Source: Betaproteobacteria bacterium
Lineage (GTDB): Bacteria > Pseudomonadota > Gammaproteobacteria > Burkholderiales > SG8-41
DNA length: 53,498 nucleotides
Direction: 5' to 3'
NCBI GenBank assembly: GCA_025356695.1
Contig: JANXSE010000025.1
Location: 1 to 53,498, forward strand
Shown one piece after another: positions 28,869 through 39,007 of this stretch (position 1 is the stretch's first letter; every line of letters starts with the position of its first letter). The notes below the pieces were generated by a model. That model had not been told where the DNA came from, made no database searches, and was given only the letters and a program-made list of their open reading frames with translations. The position numbers were made by a program, and so were the translations under genes.

Positions 28869-28882
28869 TTGATATGGATCAA
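28869..28882 (-). promoter_or_regulatory. Fnr box upstream of the Crp/Fnr-family gene
   Basis: TTGAT-ATGG-ATCAA is a perfect match to the Fnr consensus TTGAT-N4-ATCAA. Centred at 28875.5, a class II position (-41.5) puts the start near 28834; the hexamer TTTACT at 28846-28841 on the minus strand is a fair -10. Confidence 0.8.
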
Positions 28883-28914: not shown

Positions 28915-30123
28915 TCAGGCCGCGGCCTCCGCCGCGGTTTCCGGCATGCTGCCGGTCAACAGGTAGTCGATCAGTTCGGCGACCGGGCGGATCGCCTGGC
29001 CAAAGGGCAGGCCTTCGCTGCCGCGGAAAAACAGGCCCTTCGAGACATCGCCCTTGAGGGCGTAAGCCAGCCGCGTGTCGATGCAAAATTGGCCTGACGA
29101 CGCATGCCCGTCGCGCAGTCCGCAGACGGTCAGACAATTGAGCCCGGGCACGCAGCGCCTTTGATCGGCCTTGGCGTTCGATTGCAGGGCTTTTTCGCGG
29201 CGCAGGTAGCGTTTGAGCCAGGGTGTGAGAACAGCACGTGCGGGCAGTCCGGCTACGCTCATGAATTCGACGATGTCTTCGCGCTGCGCCTGCGCCAGCA
29301 CCGTTTTGAAATTCGCATGTGCATCGCCTTCCTCGGTGACGGCGAACGGCGTGCCGACTTGCACGGCGGCGGCGCCCAGTGCCAGCAACTGGCAAAGGGC
29401 CTCGTGCGTATTGACGCCGCCGGCGGCGATTAATGGAATGCGTTCGCGCTCGATGCCGAGCTCGCGCATCAGCGCGAATATGCCTTCAAGGACGGGTTCG
29501 AAGTCATAGCGCGGATGGTTGATTTCCTCTGGGCGCGTCGCGCCGAGGTGGCCGCCGGCGTAACGTGGATGTTCGATCACGATCGCGTCGGGCAGGCGGT
29601 TCTTGCGCAGCCATTTCTTCAGCACAATGGCGGTGCCGCGGACATCCGACAAAATCGGCAGCAGGGCGATGTCGGGGAAATTGCGCGTCATGTCGGGCAG
29701 ATCGAGCGGCAGGCCGGCACCCATCACGATGGCGTGCGCGCCGCTCTCGCAGCACTGGCGCACTTGGGCGGCGTGGTCAGCCACTGCTTTCATGACATTC
29801 ACGGCCACCGCACCGCGTCCGCCGGCCAGTTTCAGGGCGGCGCGAATTTCCCGGTCGAGCGCGACCAGGTTTGCCGCGTTGAGCGCTGCGCGGTCAGTCG
29901 ATCCGGCGGTGCGTTCCAGCAAATCGGGGTGATGATGGCGCAGATCGACGCTGGATATGGTGCCGAGCGCACCCAGCGCGGCGACGCTGCCGGCGAGACG
30001 ATGGGCCGATACGCCGATGCCCATGCCGCCTTGCACCACCGGCAGCAGTGCGCGGCCGCGCAGCATCCAGCGCCGTGCGCTGGTTTGGTCCGTGTTGATC
30101 ACCGTGGTGGCCGGCGTACTCAT
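28915..30123 (-). CDS. Nitronate monooxygenase-like FMN protein
   Basis: A 402-aa TIM-barrel flavoprotein of the nitronate monooxygenase/2-nitropropane dioxygenase family. The ATG at 30123 (MSTPATTVINTDQ) is used; a frame open to 30714 is antisense-free but lies within the upstream radical SAM gene in another frame. FMN-binding features are VVQGGMGIGVSA (about 27-38), HAIVMGAGLPLDLP, the EHPRYAGGHLGA loop, LIAAGGVNTHEAL and GAAAVQVGTPFAVTEE. The C-terminus adds a region with four cysteines (CVPGLNCLTVCG then QFCIDTRLAYALKGD) that is not part of the barrel and may bind metal. It starts 13 bp after the radical SAM gene, whose stop overlaps its AAGG ribosome-binding site. Confidence 0.93.
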   Translation of the reverse strand: MSTPATTVINTDQTSARRWMLRGRALLPVVQGGMGIGVSAHRLAGSVAALGALGTISSVDLRHHHPDLLERTAGSTDRAALNAANLVALDREIRAALKLAGGRGAVAVNVMKAVADHAAQVRQCCESGAHAIVMGAGLPLDLPDMTRNFPDIALLPILSDVRGTAIVLKKWLRKNRLPDAIVIEHPRYAGGHLGATRPEEINHPRYDFEPVLEGIFALMRELGIERERIPLIAAGGVNTHEALCQLLALGAAAVQVGTPFAVTEEGDAHANFKTVLAQAQREDIVEFMSVAGLPARAVLTPWLKRYLRREKALQSNAKADQRRCVPGLNCLTVCGLRDGHASSGQFCIDTRLAYALKGDVSKGLFFRGSEGLPFGQAIRPVAELIDYLLTGSMPETAAEAAA

Positions 30124-30136
30124 GCAGACCGGCGCC

Positions 30137-31093
30137 TTAACCGTAGGCGATACAGTTCTCGCACACGGTGCCGCGGACATCCTTGCGCAGATGCGCGGCG
30201 CGCAGTTTGACGAACCCCTCGGAATTCCATGCGTCCATGAACGAGACTTTATTGAGGTCCCCCATGGTCCAGTTGGCCGTCGCGTCGAAGCAGCATGCGG
30301 AGAGCTTGCCCTCGGCGGTGACATGGCCCTCGGTGAAGGCCGACCAGCAGGGCAGCGGTTCGCGCAACGCGCCGATGCGGCCCTGGTTGCCGGCGGTCGG
30401 CCGGTAGCCGAGTTCGCTTTCGCGTTGCGTGGCGAACGCGCCCATCGAGTACAGCGGTAGCCAGTAATGCTGGTCGACGTAGGGCAGCACCTGTTCTTTG
30501 AGCAGGGCCTCCATCTTGGTCTGTTGTTCGCCGTCATAGCGGATCGACGAAGCGTAAAGACCGGTCTTGTAATTTTTTTCCCGGCGCAGTTCCCATGCCG
30601 AGCGGATGTTGGCAAGCGCGTGACGGAACAGGCGGCCGGCCACCCCCATGATTTTTTCGAACTGTTCCTCGTCGGCGGCGTTGACCGACCACTTGAGTGA
30701 ATCGAGCCCCGCACTCATGCATTCATCAAGCGCTTCAGGAAAGGCCATCGATGCGTTCGACGTCAGAAAGACGTACGGCATCTGCAGTTCGCTCTTGAGG
30801 TAACGGATGCAATCGACCAGCAGGCGCGGATTCATGAAGGATTCGCCGAGATAAAACACGCCGATCTCCTCGACGCCGGCGTCGCGCATCTCGCGCGTAA
30901 CGCGTTTGAAGAGGCCGAAGTCCATGTCCCATTTCGGCTGCACTTCGCGCGTGCGCAGCGCGCAAAAACCGCAGCGGTAGTTGCAGCGCGGCGAGATTTC
31001 GATTTTCACGGCCTTCGGCGCCGGCAGCGAGGCCTGCTGGTATTGCGCCGGTATGCGCGTGACGTTGTCGATGCGGTCGGTAATGGTTGTCAT
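30137..31093 (-). CDS. Radical SAM protein with SPASM-like C-terminal cluster
   Basis: A 318-aa radical SAM enzyme. The SAM-cleaving cluster motif C-x3-C-x2-C is CNYRCGFC (Cys 37, 41, 44), within KIEISPRCNYRCGFCALR. A glycine-rich GVFYLGESFMNP strand follows. The last 75 residues carry a SPASM-type set of cysteines (CWSAF, ACCFD, and a terminal CENC), so a second Fe-S cluster is likely. SPASM proteins modify peptides or proteins, but no precursor peptide is visible nearby. The ATG at 31093 suits the predicted Fnr-dependent transcript; the ATG at 31114 would leave a leader of only about 11 nt. It is the first gene of an operon with the nitronate monooxygenase-like gene. Confidence 0.93.
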   Translation of the reverse strand: MTTITDRIDNVTRIPAQYQQASLPAPKAVKIEISPRCNYRCGFCALRTREVQPKWDMDFGLFKRVTREMRDAGVEEIGVFYLGESFMNPRLLVDCIRYLKSELQMPYVFLTSNASMAFPEALDECMSAGLDSLKWSVNAADEEQFEKIMGVAGRLFRHALANIRSAWELRREKNYKTGLYASSIRYDGEQQTKMEALLKEQVLPYVDQHYWLPLYSMGAFATQRESELGYRPTAGNQGRIGALREPLPCWSAFTEGHVTAEGKLSACCFDATANWTMGDLNKVSFMDAWNSEGFVKLRAAHLRKDVRGTVCENCIAYG

Positions 31094-31159
31094 GAATTCG
31101 CTTTTTTCTTGCATATGATTAAACCCGCTCCACCTTATGTTGAAGAGGGCTTGAATTCA

Positions 31160-31173
31160 TTGATTTGGATCAA
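31160..31173 (-). promoter_or_regulatory. Fnr box for the radical SAM operon
   Basis: TTGAT-TTGG-ATCAA is a perfect Fnr site centred at 31166.5. At -41.5 it predicts a start near 31125 on the minus strand, with CATAAG (31139-31134) as -10, reading into the radical SAM/nitronate monooxygenase operon. Confidence 0.82.
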
Positions 31174-31235: not shown

Positions 31236-31249
31236 TTGACCGAGATCAA
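31236..31249 (+). promoter_or_regulatory. Fnr box for the universal stress protein genes
   Basis: TTGAC-CGAG-ATCAA has one mismatch to consensus. It is centred at 31242.5, and a -41.5 geometry predicts +1 near 31284 with TAAGAT at 31271-31276 as an exactly placed -10. The first stress-protein ATG is at 31353. Confidence 0.8.
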
Positions 31250-31352: not shown

Positions 31353-31796
31353 ATGTTCAAACATATTCTGATTCCGACCGACGGTTCGCCGGTCGCCGCC
31401 AAGGCGGTCAAGGCAGGCCTTGAACTGGCCAGGGAAATCGGCGCAACGGTCACCGCTTATTACGGACTCGATCCGATGCCGGCGCCGTACTACGGCGACG
31501 GTTACACTGTCGACGCGCGCACCATAACCGACATCGAGCGCAGTGCGCGCGCCACCGGCGAGAAAGTGCTGGCGAAAATCGAACAGACGGCAAAGGCGGC
31601 CGGCGTGCCTTTCAACGCGTTGATTACCAAGCCGGCCACGCCTTACGATGGCATTATCGCCGCCGCCAGGAAATGCAAATGCGACGTGATCTTCATGGCG
31701 TCGCACGGCCGCCGCGGCATTGCCGGGCTGGTGCTGGGCAGCGTGACCAACAAGGTGCTGTCGCACTCGAAGATCCCGGTTCTGGTCTATCGATGA
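31353..31796 (+). CDS. Universal stress protein (UspA family), ATP-binding type
   Basis: A 147-aa single-domain UspA protein. The start at 31353 has GGAG 8 nt ahead; the longer open frame to 31185 has no signal. The fold markers are MFKHILIPTDGSP at the first strand and a C-terminal ASHGRRGIAGLVLGSVTNKV, equivalent to the G-2x-G-9x-G-S ATP-binding loop with the first Gly replaced by Ala. It would be induced when oxygen is low from the Fnr box at 31236-31249. It is followed by a second Usp gene in the same direction. Confidence 0.95.
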   Translation: MFKHILIPTDGSPVAAKAVKAGLELAREIGATVTAYYGLDPMPAPYYGDGYTVDARTITDIERSARATGEKVLAKIEQTAKAAGVPFNALITKPATPYDGIIAAARKCKCDVIFMASHGRRGIAGLVLGSVTNKVLSHSKIPVLVYR

Positions 31797-31866: not shown

Positions 31867-32295
31867 ATGAAGATACTGATTGCGGTTGACGGTTCGGCGC
31901 ACTCGCTGGATGCAGCCCGTTACGTCATCGAGCACGCCGCGTGGTATCGCGACAAGCCCGAGTGCGAACTTGTCGTCGTGCACGCGCCACTGCCGCATCT
32001 GCCGCGCATGGGCCTGGTGGTCAGCAGCGAACAGGTCCAGCATTATTATCAGGAGGAAGGCGCCAAAGCCCTTGCCGGTGCCAAGCGTCTGCTGGACGCA
32101 TCGGGGCTGACTTACCGCGAACACATCATGGTCGGGCCGGTCGCCGAGTCGATTGTGCAGCAGGCCAATACCTTGGCCTGTGACATGATCGTGCTGGCGA
32201 CGCGCGGCATGGGCGCGGCGGCCAACATGCTGCTGGGCTCAGTGGCCACGCGGGTGCTGCATCTGTCGGCCGTGCCGGTGATGCTCGTCAAGTAG
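31867..32295 (+). CDS. Universal stress protein (UspA family), second copy
   Basis: A 142-aa UspA-family protein starting MKILIAVDGSAHSLDAARY after an AAAGGAAA ribosome-binding site. The nucleotide loop ATRGMGAAANMLLGSVATRV has the G-9x-G-S pattern. It is only moderately similar to the Usp 70 bp upstream, so the pair is old. Both probably share the Fnr-controlled promoter. It is convergent with the acyl-CoA ligase/GNAT gene, 14 bp away. Confidence 0.95.
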   Translation: MKILIAVDGSAHSLDAARYVIEHAAWYRDKPECELVVVHAPLPHLPRMGLVVSSEQVQHYYQEEGAKALAGAKRLLDASGLTYREHIMVGPVAESIVQQANTLACDMIVLATRGMGAAANMLLGSVATRVLHLSAVPVMLVK

Positions 32296-32309: not shown

Positions 32310-35018
32310 TCACGCCGCCGCAAGCGCGAGCGTGGCGGTGCGCGAACCCGCGTCGTCCGGGGTGTGCTCGATGGTGAAGCCAAGGCCGGTGCACAGCTTG
32401 TGCATGCTGGTGTTGTTGGCGATGACGTGGCCGATCATCGTCGTCAGGCCGCGGTCGCGCGCCACTTCGATCAGGCGCTGCATCAGAATGCGGCCCAGTC
32501 CGCGCTTCTGCCACGCGTCGTCGACGACGATCGCGAATTCACAGCTCCGTCCGTCCGGGTTGGTGATGTAGCGCACGACGGCGATTTCCGTTTCGGCACC
32601 GCCTTTGCCGCCGTCGTTGCAGACGGCGACAAACGCCATTTCACGGTCATAGTCGATTTGCGTGAAACGGACCAGCATGGTTGGCGTGAGTTCGCGCACC
32701 GCGCCCATGAAACGAAAGTAACGGCTTTCCTGCGACAGACGGCGCACGAATGCCTGTTCGATCTCGGCGTCTTCCGGCCGGATCGGGCGCATGATGAAAC
32801 GTTTGCCGTCGTCCAGCTCGCATTCAGAAACGAGTTCCGCCGGGTAGGGGTGGATGGCCAGATGCGAATAACGCGGCAGCGCGGCGTTGCGCGGTGAAAT
32901 GACGATGCGCGCATCAACCGCGGTGACGCCGGCGGGGTCGACGATCAGCGGATTGATGTCGAGTTCATCAATCCACGGCAGTTCGCAGGCCATCTCGGAA
33001 ACGCGCAGCAGGGTCGATTCCAGCGCCGCCATGTCGGTGGCCTGCAGATTGCGGAAAGCCCCGAGCATTTTTGACACCCGCGTGCGCGCGATCATTGCGG
33101 CGGTCAGCGTCTGGTTCAGCGGCGGTAGATCAAGCGCGCGATCGCGCAGCACTTCCGCGGCGGTGCCGCCGGCGGCAAATACGATGGCCGGTCCGAACAC
33201 CGGATCACGCACGATGCCCAGCATCAATTCGCGCGACTGGCTGGAGGACTGCATTTTTTCGACGACTACACCGGCGATGCGCGCCTGTGGACGTTCGCGT
33301 TTGGCGTTGGCGATGATCTGTCCGTAGGCCTTGCGTATCGCATCGGCGTCGGCAAGGTTCAGACGGATGCCGTCGATGTCGCTCTTGTGGCTGATATCCG
33401 GCGAGTCGATTTTCAACGCAACCGGATAACCGAGTTCGGCGGCACGCTGCATGGCCTCGTCGACGCCGCCCGCCGTCAGCGCGCGTCCGACCGGGATGCG
33501 GAACGCGCTCAGCACCGCCTTGGCTTCAATCTGCGTGAGGGCGCGGCGCCCTTCCGCCAGCGCCGATTCGATGATCTGTTTGGCCGCTTGAATATCGGGG
33601 GCCGTTTGTTGTTCGCTCGGCCCCGGGGTTTGCAACAGCGTTTGCTGGTTCATGTAAAACGCCGAGACATGCGCAAACATGTCCACCGCGGGCTCCGGCG
33701 TGCGCAATACCGGGATGTGGGCCCTGGCGAAAACCTGGCGCGCGTCGGCAACCGATTGTTCGCCCATCCAGCAGGCCAGCAGCGGTTTGCGCGAGCCCTG
33801 TGCGCTGTCGACCACAGCCAGCGCGATGGCCATCGCATCAGTCATCGCCTGCGGTGTGAGAATGACAAGCGCGCCGTCCACCGCCGGATCGGCCAGGCAG
33901 GCCTTGACTGCAGCACCGTAACGTTTTGCATCGGCGTCGCCGATCAAGTCGAGCGGATTGCCGTGCGACCAGGTGGCAGGCAGCTTGTCCTGCAGTGAGT
34001 CGACCGTCGAGGCGGCGAGTGTGGCCAGCGGCAGGCCGAGTTCGGTGGCGCGGTCGGCCGCCATTACGCCGGGCCCGCCGCCATTGGTGATGATGGCCAG
34101 GCGGTTGCCCTGCGGGCGGATGCGCGAGGCCAGCGCCTGCGCCGCCGCCACCAGCTGGCCGACCGTTTTGACGCGTACCACGCCGGTGCGCCTGACCACC
34201 GCGTCAAACACGTCGTCGCCGCCGACCATGGCGCCGGTGTGCGACTGGATGGCGCGCGATCCGGCCGGATAACGTCCGACCTTCATCAAAATGACCGGCT
34301 TGATGCGTGCGGCCGCGCGCAGTGCGCTGACAAAGCGCCGCGCGTCGCGCACGCCTTCGATATAGAGCAGGATGTGGGCGGTCGCCGGATCGTTGGCCAG
34401 GTAATCGATCAACTCGCCGAAATCGACGTCGGTGGAGGCGCCGAGCGAAACAATGCTGGAAAAGCCGACGCGATTGGGCGCGGCCCAGTCGATCAATGCC
34501 GTGCAGACCGCACCCGATTGCGAAATCAGGCCGAGCGAACCGGCGCGCGCGGTACCGCGGGCAAAGGTGGCGTTGAGGCCGCTCGACGGTCGCATGATGC
34601 CGAGACAGTTCGGGCCCAGCAGGCGGATGTTGTATCGGCGCGCGTTCGCGAGCATGGCCTGCTCGAGGGCGGTGCCTTCCGCGCCGATTTCGCCAAAGCC
34701 GGCGCTGATCACCACCGCGGCTTTGATGCCGGCGCGCCCGCATTCCTCGACAAGGCCCGGCGCAGTCGGTGCCGGCGTCGCGATGACCGCCAGATCAACG
34801 CGTTCGGGCAGTTCGGCGATCGAGGCGTAACAGCGCACACCTTGCACGGTGGCGCGATTTGGATTCACGGGGAAAAGTTTGCCGGCGAATTTTGCGTCCA
34901 GCATGTTGCGCATCAAGACCGCGCCGATGGTGCCGGCACGCTCGGTGGCGCCGATGATGGCGACAGACGACGGTTCGAACAGGGGCGCCAGGTAATGGCG
35001 TGTGGCTAGGGAGTTCAT
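32310..35018 (-). CDS. Acyl-CoA ligase (ADP-forming)/GNAT acetyltransferase fusion, Pat-like
   Basis: A 902-aa protein with the architecture of the lysine acetyltransferase Pat/PatZ. Domains in order: CoA-binding domain (about 8-135, EPSSVAIIGATER), ligase-CoA domains (about 150-470) with the SHTGAMVGG His motif, ATP-grasp (about 500-710) with GYPVALKIDSPDISHK, and a GNAT domain (about 730-890) with the acetyl-CoA loop QKRGLGRILM. In Salmonella and E. coli the fused ligase part is a regulatory module and the GNAT part acetylates and inactivates acetyl-CoA synthetase. Here the SHTG His is retained, so ligase activity cannot be excluded. It follows fnr by 59 bp on the same strand, which suggests co-regulation with oxygen supply. 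Confidence 0.95.
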   Translation of the reverse strand: MNSLATRHYLAPLFEPSSVAIIGATERAGTIGAVLMRNMLDAKFAGKLFPVNPNRATVQGVRCYASIAELPERVDLAVIATPAPTAPGLVEECGRAGIKAAVVISAGFGEIGAEGTALEQAMLANARRYNIRLLGPNCLGIMRPSSGLNATFARGTARAGSLGLISQSGAVCTALIDWAAPNRVGFSSIVSLGASTDVDFGELIDYLANDPATAHILLYIEGVRDARRFVSALRAAARIKPVILMKVGRYPAGSRAIQSHTGAMVGGDDVFDAVVRRTGVVRVKTVGQLVAAAQALASRIRPQGNRLAIITNGGGPGVMAADRATELGLPLATLAASTVDSLQDKLPATWSHGNPLDLIGDADAKRYGAAVKACLADPAVDGALVILTPQAMTDAMAIALAVVDSAQGSRKPLLACWMGEQSVADARQVFARAHIPVLRTPEPAVDMFAHVSAFYMNQQTLLQTPGPSEQQTAPDIQAAKQIIESALAEGRRALTQIEAKAVLSAFRIPVGRALTAGGVDEAMQRAAELGYPVALKIDSPDISHKSDIDGIRLNLADADAIRKAYGQIIANAKRERPQARIAGVVVEKMQSSSQSRELMLGIVRDPVFGPAIVFAAGGTAAEVLRDRALDLPPLNQTLTAAMIARTRVSKMLGAFRNLQATDMAALESTLLRVSEMACELPWIDELDINPLIVDPAGVTAVDARIVISPRNAALPRYSHLAIHPYPAELVSECELDDGKRFIMRPIRPEDAEIEQAFVRRLSQESRYFRFMGAVRELTPTMLVRFTQIDYDREMAFVAVCNDGGKGGAETEIAVVRYITNPDGRSCEFAIVVDDAWQKRGLGRILMQRLIEVARDRGLTTMIGHVIANNTSMHKLCTGLGFTIEHTPDDAGSRTATLALAAA

Positions 35019-35077: not shown

Positions 35078-35824
35078 CTATGGATGTGGGTGCCCCGCGC
35101 ACTGGCTTACCATGGCGCGCAGGCGGTCCGCGTCGAGTATCTCAACGCTTTTGTTCTGCACGGCGATAATGCCTTCGGTCTGGAAATGCGAGAGGGCGCG
35201 GCTGATCGTTTCGAGCTTGAGGCCCAGATAGCTGCCGATTTCGTTGCGCGTCATGCGCAGCAGAAAGCGCTTCGGCGAATAGCCGCGCGCGGCAAAACGT
35301 TGCGAAAGATTGAGCAGAAAGGCCGCCAGGCGTTCTTCCGCGCGCATGCTGCCCAGAAGCAGCATCACGCCGTAATCGCGCGCAATTTCGCGGCTCATGA
35401 TGCGGTGGAAATGCTGCTGCAGCGTGGGGATGTCGCGGCTTAATTTTTCGAGATCGCCGAAGGGGATTTCGCAGACCTCGCTGTCTTCGAGCGAGACTGC
35501 ATCGCACATGTGTTTGCCGCTGCCGATGCCGTCCATGCCGAGCAGTTCGCCGGCCATGTGGAAGCCGGCCACCTGTTCACGGCCATCGTCATGCATGACG
35601 CAGCTTTTGAAGAAGCCGGTGCGCACGGCATAGAGCGACTGCAGGGCGCCGCCGGCGCGGTACAGGTAATCGCCGCGTTTGAGCGGGCGCTTGCGATTGA
35701 CGATCTCATCGAGTTGCTGCAGTTCCTCGCCGGCGAGCCCGGCTGGCAGGCAAAGCTCCTGCAGGCTGCAGGCCGAGCAAGCCGCGCGCAGGGTGTGTGG
35801 GACAATTGGAATCACCGTATTCAT
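35078..35824 (-). CDS. fnr: Fnr-type oxygen-sensing transcriptional regulator
   Basis: A 248-aa Fnr/Anr orthologue that binds DNA as a dimer when it holds a [4Fe-4S] cluster. All four cluster ligands are present: Cys16, Cys19, Cys25 (ACSACSLQELC) and Cys118 in SEVCEIPF, matching E. coli C20, C23, C29 and C122. The HTH recognition helix carries E205, S208 and R209 (LKLETISRAL), the residues that read TTGAT, so the boxes found here are its expected targets. The ATG at 35824 follows AAGG; an in-frame ATG ten codons up is less likely. It is divergent from hemN. Confidence 0.96.
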   Translation of the reverse strand: MNTVIPIVPHTLRAACSACSLQELCLPAGLAGEELQQLDEIVNRKRPLKRGDYLYRAGGALQSLYAVRTGFFKSCVMHDDGREQVAGFHMAGELLGMDGIGSGKHMCDAVSLEDSEVCEIPFGDLEKLSRDIPTLQQHFHRIMSREIARDYGVMLLLGSMRAEERLAAFLLNLSQRFAARGYSPKRFLLRMTRNEIGSYLGLKLETISRALSHFQTEGIIAVQNKSVEILDADRLRAMVSQCAGHPHP

Positions 35825-35907
35825 GTCTGGGCCTTTTTTGCTATTGCGGCGCACCAGAGCAATCTTAAATCCTGCCTTGCCGGAGTGGCGCGGAATCCGG
35901 TCGAAGG

Positions 35908-35921
35908 TTGATCTATGTCAA
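35908..35921 (+). promoter_or_regulatory. Fnr box for hemN
   Basis: TTGAT-CTAT-GTCAA has one mismatch to consensus. It is centred at 35914.5, and the -41.5 geometry predicts +1 near 35956 with GATACT (35943-35948) exactly at -10, 15 nt before the hemN ATG. On the opposite strand no -10 fits fnr, so activation is directed at hemN. Confidence 0.8.
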
Positions 35922-35970
35922 AACTGCCGGGGTCGACTTGCGGATACTAGCACTTCACGAAACTGAAAAC

Positions 35971-37386
35971 ATGCTACAGACAGTGATCACCCCACCGCCC
36001 GCCCTGCCGGCGCTCGAAATCGACCTCGATCTGATCCGCCGCTTTGACAGCCGCGGGCCGCGCTATACGTCCTATCCGACCGCTGATCGCTTTGTCGAGG
36101 CGTTTGACGCGGAAGCCTACCAGTCCTGGCTGGCGCGCCGGAATATCGGCGGCATCGTCAGGCCGCTGGCCCTCTATTTGCACCTGCCGTTTTGCAGCAC
36201 GCTGTGCTTTTACTGCGGCTGCAACAAAATCGTCACGCGCGACCGCAGCAAGGGCGAGACCTATCTGAAATATCTCGAAGAGGAAACCGCGCTGCAGGCG
36301 TCGCTACTGGGCGGCGACACCAAGGTGCGGCAGATGCATTGGGGCGGTGGCACGCCCAACTTCTTTACGATCGAGCAGGTGCGCGGGTTGATGGGCCGGT
36401 TGCGCGACCGCTTCGAGTTCGATCCCGCCGGCGAATACGCGATCGAAATGGATCCGCGCGCCGCCAATGCCGAATACGTCGCCAGTCTGGGCGAACTCGG
36501 TTTCAACCGCATGAGCGTCGGTGTGCAGGATTTCGATCCCGATGTGCAGCGCGCAGTGCACCGCATCCAGAGCGAGGCGGAAACGCTCGAGGTGATCAAC
36601 GCGGCGCGGGCGCATGGTTTTACCGGCATCAACGTCGATCTGATCTACGGCCTGCCGAAGCAGACGCTGGTGAGCTTTGAGCGTACCCTGAAACGGGTGA
36701 TCGAGGTGGCGCCGGACCGCATCGCAGTCTACAACTATGCGCACATTCCGTCGTTGTTCAAGCCGCAGCAGCGCATCCGCGAAGCGGACCTGCCGTCCCC
36801 GGATACGCGGCTTAAATTGCTGACGATGGCGATCCATCTTCTGACCGGTGCCGGTTATCAATATATCGGCATGGATCATTTTGCAAAAAGCAACGATGGT
36901 CTGGCAGTGGCCCAGCGCAAGGGACTGTTGCACCGGAATTTCCAGGGTTACTCGACGCATGCCGATTGCGATCTGCTTGCGCTCGGCGTGTCGGCGATCG
37001 GCAACATCGGCCCGACCTACAGCCAGAACCAGCGCAATATTGACGACTACTATCACACGCTGGACCGCGGCGAGCTGCCGGTGATGCGCGGGCTCGAACT
37101 CTCCGCAGACGATTTGCTGCGGCGTGCGGTGATCGGCGGCCTGATGTGCAATTTCGCGCTGGACAAGGAATCGTTCGCCATCGCCTACCTGATCGATTTC
37201 GACAAGTATTTCGCGCCCGAACTCGCGGAGCTTGGTGAAATGGAACAGCTCGGCATGCTCGAACTCGGCAAGAGCGAGATTCGCGTGACGTCGAAAGGGC
37301 GGCTGCTTGTGCGCAACATCTGCATGGTCTTCGATCGCTACCTGCGCCAGGACCAGGAGCGCCGCCGCTACTCGCGCGTGATCTAA
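35971..37386 (+). CDS. hemN: Oxygen-independent coproporphyrinogen III dehydrogenase
   Basis: A 471-aa radical SAM enzyme that decarboxylates coproporphyrinogen III to protoporphyrinogen IX without oxygen. The cluster motif is C75-x3-C79-x2-C82-x-C84 (FCSTLCFYCGCNK), the form with the fourth Cys that distinguishes true HemN. The RYTSYPTADRF segment precedes it and HWGGGTPNF follows. The ATG at 35971 is preferred to the earlier frame start at 35908, which lies inside the Fnr box. It supplies haem for anaerobic respiration under Fnr control. Confidence 0.97.
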   Translation: MLQTVITPPPALPALEIDLDLIRRFDSRGPRYTSYPTADRFVEAFDAEAYQSWLARRNIGGIVRPLALYLHLPFCSTLCFYCGCNKIVTRDRSKGETYLKYLEEETALQASLLGGDTKVRQMHWGGGTPNFFTIEQVRGLMGRLRDRFEFDPAGEYAIEMDPRAANAEYVASLGELGFNRMSVGVQDFDPDVQRAVHRIQSEAETLEVINAARAHGFTGINVDLIYGLPKQTLVSFERTLKRVIEVAPDRIAVYNYAHIPSLFKPQQRIREADLPSPDTRLKLLTMAIHLLTGAGYQYIGMDHFAKSNDGLAVAQRKGLLHRNFQGYSTHADCDLLALGVSAIGNIGPTYSQNQRNIDDYYHTLDRGELPVMRGLELSADDLLRRAVIGGLMCNFALDKESFAIAYLIDFDKYFAPELAELGEMEQLGMLELGKSEIRVTSKGRLLVRNICMVFDRYLRQDQERRRYSRVI

Positions 37387-37588: not shown

Positions 37589-39007
37589 ATGAACGAGAAA
37601 AAGCACGTCAAGTTTAACGGACGGTTGGTCATCGTCGGCTTTGGATCGGTCGGGCAGGGCAGCCTGCCGCTGCTGCTGCGACACATCGATATGCCCATCG
37701 AACGCGTGTCCATACTCACCGGCGACACGCGCGGCATTGAAGAATCCAAACATTTCGGCATCAAGTTCAACGTCAAGCCGCTGACGCGCGAAAACTACAA
37801 ATCCGTGCTCGATCCGCTGTTGTCGAAGGGCGACTTTCTGCTCAACCTTTCGGTGGAAGTCTCCAGCGTCGATCTGATCGAATACTGCTGCAAGCGCGGC
37901 GTCATGTATCTCGATACCTGTATTGAACCCTGGCTCGGCGGTTATTACGACACCAGCATTTCAGCGTCGCGGCGCTCCAACTACGGCCTGCGCGAAGAAG
38001 TGCTGCGGCTGCGCGGCAAATATTCGACAGGCGCGCCAACGATGATTCCGACCCACGGCGCCAATCCAGGCCTGATTTCGCACTGGGTCAAGCAGGGGCT
38101 GATCAACCTGTCGCGCGACATCCGCAAACGCGCTGCCAAGCCGGAGTCGCGTGAAGACTGGGCGCGTCTTTCCATGCAGCTCGGAGTGAAGGCGATCCAC
38201 TGTTCCGAGCGCGACACGCAGGTCGCCAATCCGGGCAAACGCCGGCTCGAATTCGTCAACACCTGGTCGGTCGACGGTTTTGTCGGTGAGGGCTCGCAGC
38301 CCTGCGAACTCGGCTGGGGCTCACACGAGAAGCATTTTCCACGCGACGGCAAACAGCACAAGTTCGGCTGCAAAGCGGCGATTTATCTGACGCGCCCCGG
38401 CGCCTCGGTACGCGTGCGTTCGTGGACGCCGCTGGAGGGTTGCTTCCACGGTTTTCTCATTACCCATGGCGAGGCGATTTCGATTTCAGATTACCTGACG
38501 GTGCGTTTCGGCAAGAAAGTCATGTACCGGCCGACCTGCCATTACGCCTACCATCCCTGCGACAACACGATACTGTCGCTGCATGAGTACGCGGGCAAGA
38601 ACTGGGCGCTGCCGGAGAACAAGCGCATTCTGATGGACGAAATCTACGACGGCGCCGATGAACTCGGCGCGCTGCTGATGGGGCATGCGCGCGGCGCCTA
38701 TTGGTACGGTTCGCGCCTGACTATCCACGAGGCGCGCAAGCTTGCGCCCTTCAATAATGCGACCAGCCTGCAGGTCGCCGCCGGTGTCATGGCCGGCGTG
38801 GTGTGGGCGATGGAAAATCCGCGCCGCGGCGTGTGTGATCCCGATGACCTTGATTTTCAGCGCGTGCTTGAAATCGCCAATCCCTATCTGGGCAGCGTTG
38901 GCGGTACCTATACCGACTGGACACCGCTGGATGATCGCGGACAGTTGTTCCCGGAAGATGTCGATGCGGGCGATCCGTGGCAGTTCAAGAATATCCGCGT
39001 CGTCTGA
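37589..39007 (+). CDS. hss: Homospermidine synthase
   Basis: A 472-aa NAD-dependent enzyme of the saccharopine dehydrogenase-like homospermidine synthase family, which joins two putrescines (or putrescine and spermidine) into sym-homospermidine. The Rossmann motif is VIVGFGSVGQGSLPLLLRH (residues 14-32). Family signatures include DTCIEPWLGGYYD, PTHGANPGLISHWVKQGL, TWSVDGFVGEG and GAYWYGSRLTIHEAR, and the length is normal for the bacterial enzyme. It follows hemN by about 200 bp on the same strand, a gap with no gene. Homospermidine would replace spermidine as a polyamine. Confidence 0.95.
   Translation: MNEKKHVKFNGRLVIVGFGSVGQGSLPLLLRHIDMPIERVSILTGDTRGIEESKHFGIKFNVKPLTRENYKSVLDPLLSKGDFLLNLSVEVSSVDLIEYCCKRGVMYLDTCIEPWLGGYYDTSISASRRSNYGLREEVLRLRGKYSTGAPTMIPTHGANPGLISHWVKQGLINLSRDIRKRAAKPESREDWARLSMQLGVKAIHCSERDTQVANPGKRRLEFVNTWSVDGFVGEGSQPCELGWGSHEKHFPRDGKQHKFGCKAAIYLTRPGASVRVRSWTPLEGCFHGFLITHGEAISISDYLTVRFGKKVMYRPTCHYAYHPCDNTILSLHEYAGKNWALPENKRILMDEIYDGADELGALLMGHARGAYWYGSRLTIHEARKLAPFNNATSLQVAAGVMAGVVWAMENPRRGVCDPDDLDFQRVLEIANPYLGSVGGTYTDWTPLDDRGQLFPEDVDAGDPWQFKNIRVV

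Follow-up and report, generated by a model that had tools for sequence, protein, structure and literature searches.

Why should a gene for a radical S-adenosylmethionine (SAM) protein lie directly before one for a flavoprotein of the nitronate monooxygenase (NMO) family, with just 13 bp between them and a perfect FNR box ahead of both? The pair is found on the minus strand of JANXSE010000025.1, a contig of 53,498 nucleotides from the betaproteobacterial assembly GCA_025356695.1, which in its entirety is called the window below. A preliminary description had proposed an uncharacterised anaerobic modification or detoxification system. It was right about the arrangement: both open reading frames (ORFs) are intact, and the same 13-bp gap is seen in the nearest relative locus, L001; from this spacing the pair is probably co-transcribed. 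Our own answer, which we hold to be probable, is that the locus is an FNR-switched anaerobic island encoding a UfaA/FabX-type enzyme, the flavoprotein, together with a companion under the same FNR control, the radical SAM protein, whose gene is often found beside ufaA and which is not an obligate subunit of the enzyme. The features are collected in Table 1.

The flavoprotein has a clear likely role. It matches the NMO family of Pfam (PF03060) with 115.6 bits, and its four best matches among solved structures, 7e1q among them, all come at E 3e-52 and all bear the label 2-nitropropane dioxygenase. The code 7E1Q occurs in the paper on the structure of Helicobacter pylori FabX (PMC8626469), and the near-equal scores and lengths of the four chains lead us to read them as one enzyme. 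Over the best FabX chain, 126 of 342 aligned residues are identical (36.8%). The catalytic H182 of FabX is kept as H192, its flavin mononucleotide (FMN) contacts N99, E175, Q240 and T243 are all kept as N109, E184, Q255 and T258, and the four cysteines of the tail align one-to-one with its [4Fe-4S] ligands. They are invariant in all 15 homologues aligned, out of 121 sequences gathered. The preliminary description had placed these cysteines outside the known fold of the protein; their match to the FabX ligands makes the four-cysteine tail a known cluster domain. Nor does the flavoprotein want for a pathway, as had been thought, since FabX/UfaA-like enzymes synthesise unsaturated fatty acids (PMC8626469, PMC11300592). 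Taken together, the sequence comparisons identify it as a probable FabX/UfaA-type enzyme, presumably with the corresponding activity, and point to unsaturated fatty acid synthesis at low oxygen, rather than nitronate detoxification, as its role. The enoyl-acyl carrier protein (ACP) reductase FabK was also considered and is ruled out by a TIGR03151 score of 70.8 bits against a cut-off of 453.1.

The title of the 2011 paper of Isabella and Clark on Neisseria gonorrhoeae UfaA reportedly speaks of anaerobes lacking FabA. Independent backing for the proposed role of the flavoprotein comes from the distribution of UfaA and FabA among relatives of the window, for which two samples were used. The first comprises 200 genomes from the order of the nearest relative, G001, which forms its centre, with loci mostly titled Burkholderiales or Betaproteobacteria; 71 have a close UfaA (E 1e-60 or better) and 12 have a FabA scoring above the cut-off, with no genome holding both (hypergeometric P 0.004). 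The second consists of 40 genomes that hold the radical SAM gene, picked from the genomes of 77 loci: close UfaA, at least 56% identical, is present in 24 and FabA in 5, again with zero overlap (P 0.007), while 3 more have weak UfaA matches only (34-35%). A desaturase-family match is found in 31 of these 40. G001 itself has UfaA, two desaturase matches and no FabA; this, with the mutual exclusion of FabA and UfaA in relatives, makes it probable that the window's host is FabA-less as well.

Regulation by oxygen is suggested by FNR boxes. With at most one mismatch there are five matches in the window where 1.08 are expected, and none of 100 shuffles reached five. In an alignment of five intergenic regions, judged by eye, the box ahead of the pair ranks among the top two blocks for conservation, and in four of the five, L003 being the exception, a -10-like CATAAG or CATAAC comes after it. 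The box on the side of the divergent universal stress protein gene (usp), imperfect in the window, is perfect in all four relatives compared (L001, L002, L003, L035). This box and the perfect one at 28869-28882 are placed so that they could serve usp and the downstream Crp-family gene, respectively, giving an island with several FNR sites instead of one. The pattern extends well beyond this contig. Of 74 loci, 42 have a box with no more than one mismatch in the 300 bp next to the radical SAM start, about 4.3 being expected from the background of the same loci, and 29 have a perfect one (about 1.9 expected; 3 of the 77 loci were excluded because the gene start is missing or too close to an edge). 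For ufaA, with a limit of 360 bp from the matched start, the count is 14 of 35 loci, 5 of them perfect, against about 3.3 expected (3 of 38 excluded, L078-L080, in which ufaA comes right after the radical SAM gene). By its motifs the radical SAM gene is predicted to be under FNR control, which would be exerted through binding of Fnr.

The radical SAM protein carries the CX3CX2C cluster motif and a domain recognised by Pfam as SPASM, so that its additional cysteines, too, belong to a known fold, contrary to the preliminary description. Under the definition of the twitch motif that serves for the assignment of four cysteines, C249, C267, C311 and C314, none of which varies among the 32 sequences aligned, the predicted domain is the short, four-cysteine form. 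Its family is uncharacterised. All 19 NCBIfam radical SAM families matched at E of 0.01 or below, including MoaA, PqqE, viperin and W-cofactor maturase, fall far under their cut-offs (best score 57.3 bits against 380), and a PHROGs search gave nothing useful. Of two structure models, the first was poor (predicted local distance difference test score, pLDDT, 57.4) and was discarded; the second, from a more varied alignment, reached a pLDDT of 78.5, and fold matches to SPASM/twitch enzymes cover nearly the whole of it. No single reaction is favoured by the fold search, in which the rows from DesII to anSME lie less than 2 Z apart. As a separate observation, four loci -- L005 (6931-8957), L010, L021 and L071 -- have tandem radical SAM genes, with a divergent copy, 38-48% identical, directly before that of the CNYRCGFC type; in L005 and L021, where its motif was read, this copy is of the CDFxCFFC type.

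Adjacency of the two genes is not peculiar to this strain. Of the 77 radical SAM loci, 21 have ufaA at a distance of no more than a few kb, a lower bound since many loci stop at contig edges. It follows the radical SAM gene directly in L001, L002, L013, L017, L023, L035 and L069, a Crp-family gene intervenes in L020, L033, L040, L042, L047, L049 and L050, and other layouts are seen in L016, L024, L048, L059, L060, L061 and L065. Of the preliminary description, low-oxygen control (by sequence), the recurrence of the pairing and the conservation of the flavoprotein cysteines find support. The order-level sample, in which few genomes (9 out of 200) hold the radical SAM gene at E 1e-60, permits a test of association: UfaA is present in 8 of these 9 and in 63 of the 191 others (one-sided P 0.0012), the ninth, G138, having FabA instead. 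The two genes are within 5 kb of each other in 6 of the 8, whereas ubiU and ufaA are so in 3 of 38 (P 0.0002) and the radical SAM gene and ubiU in 0 of 4. If the centre genome G001 is left out, co-occurrence stands at 7 of 8 (P 0.003) and linkage at 5 of 7, compared with 3 of 37 for ubiU and ufaA (P 0.0009). Six of the nine genomes are also among the 77 loci (L001, L010, L022, L032, L033, L049), so that the two sets overlap. Linkage to ufaA extends to the divergent radical SAM proteins of L126-L128, with 52-64% identity. At the level of the class, two of the 274 genomes searched at E 1e-45 carry the radical SAM gene; one is G001, and the other (55%) has no ufaA within the 18 kb read. The link between the two genes is real but non-obligate. 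A connection with ubiquinone was rejected: ubiU, present in 4 of the 9 radical SAM genomes and in 62 of the 191 others (P 0.48), neither co-occurs with the radical SAM gene nor is linked to it. Literature tying the radical SAM protein to FabX/UfaA or to an FNR island was not found in a search that mostly did not extend to subscription papers.

Several points weigh against the reading of a UfaA-type enzyme with an FNR co-regulated companion. On the side of the enzyme, only R164 of the FabX ACP-contact set (R164, R160, K152, T130) is kept; two contacts are conservatively changed (R160 to K170, K152 to R162) and one is lost (T130 to L140). FabX activity requires oxygen (PMC8626469), and for NGO1024, the gonococcal FabX homologue, a published table puts MtrR, not FNR, beside the gene (PMC3032703), and what takes up the electrons of the gonococcal enzyme under anaerobic conditions is described as unknown (PMC11300592). 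On the side of regulation, no box at the chosen stringency is present in 32 of the 74 radical SAM loci and 21 of the 35 ufaA loci. As to the pairing, the genomes in the samples are related and not independent, weakening all P values accordingly, and 16 of the 40 radical SAM genomes have no close UfaA. Neither close UfaA nor FabA is present in 11 of the 40, which include Azoarcus sp. L1K30 and otherwise are mostly metagenome-assembled genomes (MAGs) of unstated completeness; the radical SAM protein is thus not dependent on the UfaA pathway. Finally, neighbours were counted with a home-made gene caller within six genes of the radical SAM gene, in the 78 mapped loci that have it, and usp (28 loci) is commoner among them than ufaA (23), so that the linkage could reflect a shared FNR island; further neighbours are ccoN (18), fnr (15), hemN (9), nrdD (6) and ubiU (6). 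On this map the radical SAM gene is not shown in L048, L075 and L076, L068 has no row, L129 and L130 duplicate L049 and L032, and for L048 and L065 the presence of ufaA is taken from a separate locus comparison. The cco, nar and ubi names are our reading of sequence and gene order, while the NRDD, SCP2, NnrS, hemerythrin and SirB names come from Pfam, on one or two examples each.

A shared island is also the core of the strongest of the alternatives, that of a pure neighbourhood effect: both genes would belong to the FNR regulon and to the same anaerobic island, and act on unrelated substrates. We give it slightly less than an even chance. The radical SAM gene also adjoins ccoNOPG, nrdDG, ubiUV(T), hemN and usp, and in some loci without a nearby ufaA it adjoins glycan- or pilus-type genes. 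The order in L059-L061 is ubiU-ubiV-SCP2-ufaA-radical SAM, in some with an intervening gene; an SCP2-domain gene takes the position of ubiT in three loci, NnrS, hemerythrin and SirB genes are found in others, and in L126 and L127 ufaA-nrdG-nrdD stand beside the radical SAM gene on the opposite strand. In L002 and L035, where the gap between the pair is wider, an FNR box lies inside it, so that ufaA there has a separate FNR site of its own. The genomes lacking both UfaA and FabA fit this explanation as well. What counts against it is that linkage to ufaA is far tighter than that of either gene to ubiU, and that it recurs with radical SAM relatives as distant as those of L126-L128.

A joint pathway would have the radical SAM protein modify UfaA itself, or else the acyl product or electron partner of that enzyme, both proteins being needed for anaerobic membrane lipids. 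The co-occurrence and tight linkage in the order-level sample favour this, as does the operon-like spacing in the window and L001. Yet 63 of the 71 UfaA genomes in that sample have no radical SAM gene at E 1e-60, which makes the gene generally dispensable for UfaA, and these together with the 16 radical SAM genomes without close UfaA rule out a strict two-gene system. With a radical SAM gene in Azoarcus sp. L1K30 without close UfaA, and with unrelated surroundings elsewhere, a shared substrate is rated as rather unlikely, and the neighbourhood effect higher. The joint modification system of the preliminary description thus keeps its statistical link and loses its obligate character, which leaves a single system unproven. 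Less likely still is a narrower version, in which the radical SAM protein would be dedicated to UfaA as its partner when unsaturated lipids are made in the strict absence of oxygen, either activating or repairing the flavoprotein or its electron outlet, or else acting on the same acyl chain as UfaA in a second, radical-based desaturation or modification. Were it true, it would bear directly on how FabX-type enzymes function without oxygen as electron acceptor.

The radical SAM protein might also be a maturase of ribosomally synthesised and post-translationally modified peptides whose precursor has escaped notice, and this we consider improbable. As the preliminary description had it, no convincing precursor-peptide ORF (18 AA or more, judged by eye) was seen upstream of the radical SAM gene, either in the window or in the four relatives compared; the small ORFs of these five loci vary in place, length or sequence, or run antisense to the radical SAM start. 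The top Foldseek match of the model is viperin, a nucleotide enzyme, though near-ties make this non-discriminating. That the flavoprotein is a true NMO detoxifying nitroalkanes, for which the generic Pfam match, the names of some relatives and the labels of the FabX chains in the PDB are what can be cited, is hardly credible and was dropped, given that chains so named match at E 2.6e-7 or worse and 3bo9, a "putative nitroalkan dioxygenase", at 1.4e-10, against 3e-52 for FabX, that the FabX cluster ligands are kept and that the gene excludes FabA.

Returning to the preferred reading of an FNR-switched island with UfaA and a co-regulated companion, events might run as follows. As oxygen drops, Fnr, encoded 4 kb away, would activate the promoter at 31160-31173, leading to joint transcription of the radical SAM gene and ufaA. 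UfaA would act as a FabX-type acyl-ACP dehydrogenase/isomerase: FMN and His192 would remove hydrogen from a medium-chain acyl-ACP and move the double bond to a cis position, the C-terminal [4Fe-4S] cluster handing on the electrons. Its product would be elongated to the unsaturated fatty acids of the membrane, a route that would stand in for oxygen-dependent desaturases. The radical SAM protein would cleave S-adenosylmethionine at its CX3CX2C cluster and, with one auxiliary twitch cluster, perform an oxygen-independent step on what is probably a small or envelope-linked substrate.

Table 1. Positions in the window of the gene pair, its motifs and neighbouring features.
Feature	Position	Strand	Basis or remark
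Radical SAM gene with SPASM/twitch domain	30137..31093	-	Intact ORF, 318 aa
Radical SAM CX3CX2C cluster motif (C37, C41, C44)	30962..30985	-	Invariant in 32/32 aligned sequences
SPASM/twitch domain (C249-x12-G-x4-C267 ... C311-x2-C314)	30152..30349	-	PF13186, 44.3 bits (cut-off 21.5)
Flavoprotein gene (UfaA/FabX-type, NMO family PF03060)	28915..30123	-	Intact ORF, 402 aa
Four-cysteine [4Fe-4S] ligand region (C324, C330, C334, C347)	29083..29154	-	Aligned 1:1 with FabX C300/C304/C308/C320
Perfect palindromic FNR box TTGATNNNNATCAA, upstream of the pair	31160..31173	-	67-80 bp before ATG; similar position in relatives
-10-like CATAAG, 20 nt past the FNR box	31134..31139	-	Sequence
FNR-like box (1 mismatch), towards divergent usp gene	31236..31249	+	Motif scan
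Perfect FNR box between ufaA and Crp-family gene	28869..28882	-	Motif scan
Universal stress protein, divergent neighbour	31353..31796	+	Pfam PF00582
Second universal stress protein	31870..32295	+	Pfam PF00582
Crp/Fnr-family regulator, downstream of ufaA	28049..28816	-	Best NCBIfam match FtrB, under FtrB cut-off
Fnr	35078..35854	-	NF008365, 273.9 bits (cut-off 228)
hemN, oxygen-independent coproporphyrinogen III oxidase	35908..37386	+	TIGR00538, 589.8 bits (cut-off 324.95)

The surroundings of the pair offer some further observations. The Crp-family gene after ufaA, with a perfect FNR box of its own, may act at a second tier in the control of the island. Positions 32310-35018, which separate the stress genes from fnr, encode a coenzyme A (CoA) ligase (TIGR02717-like, under the cut-off) fused to a GNAT acetyltransferase, an order conserved in L001, L002, L003 and L035. 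fnr and hemN are situated 4-5 kb from the pair. An FNR-like box with one mismatch (35908-35921) coincides exactly with the TTG called as the start of the hemN ORF; hemN therefore probably begins downstream of this TTG, with hemN, fnr or both as the probable targets of the box. Adjoining hemN, at 37589-39007, is a saccharopine dehydrogenase-fold protein of 472 AA with zero NCBIfam matches, possibly something like homospermidine synthase. Among the genomes compared, Azoarcus sp. L1K30 (L046/G026), a single scaffold of 4.96 Mb, has no close UfaA, FabA or desaturase match at the thresholds used. The titles of L001, L023 and L061 (Chitinophaga pinensis, Bordetella parapertussis) seem to clash with a gene content near that of uncultured betaproteobacteria, and these may be mislabelled MAGs.

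Among known systems, FabX of H. pylori shares with the window flavoprotein the NMO fold, the catalytic His, the FMN contacts and the four cluster cysteines (PMC8626469); the two differ in the spacing of the first cysteines (C-x5-C in the window, C-x3-C in FabX), in most of their sequence (37% identity) and in the FNR box behind which the window gene lies. UfaA (NGO1024) of N. gonorrhoeae is, like the window protein, a FabX homologue of a betaproteobacterium, and its gene is anaerobically induced, 9.6- and 7.9-fold without oxygen (PMC3032703); it is said to be indispensable for making unsaturated acyl chains without oxygen (PMC11300592), and a homologue from Ralstonia shares 55% identity with it (PMC4549310). 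NGO1024 is known here from published passages, which make no mention of a neighbouring radical SAM gene. Where the gonococcal type of enzyme disposes of its electrons is a question (PMC11300592) for which a radical SAM family that by its sequence is FNR-controlled, and that is preferentially encoded beside ufaA, offers a concrete candidate. More generally, betaproteobacterial genes named "nitronate monooxygenase" may be fatty acid enzymes.

With BtrN, MoaA, DesII and SkfB, SPASM/twitch enzymes all, the radical SAM protein has in common the CX3CX2C core and an auxiliary-cluster domain, at an identity of merely 14-18% on structure alignments. Nearer in setting are HemN, NrdD/NrdG and UbiU/UbiV, which are oxygen-independent replacements for oxygen-using enzymes. 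The genes for HemN, NrdG and UbiU-UbiV occur in the same type of island and in the same neighbourhood as the radical SAM gene, and their reactions, unlike that of the radical SAM protein, are known; most simply, it is another member of this oxygen-independent replacement set.

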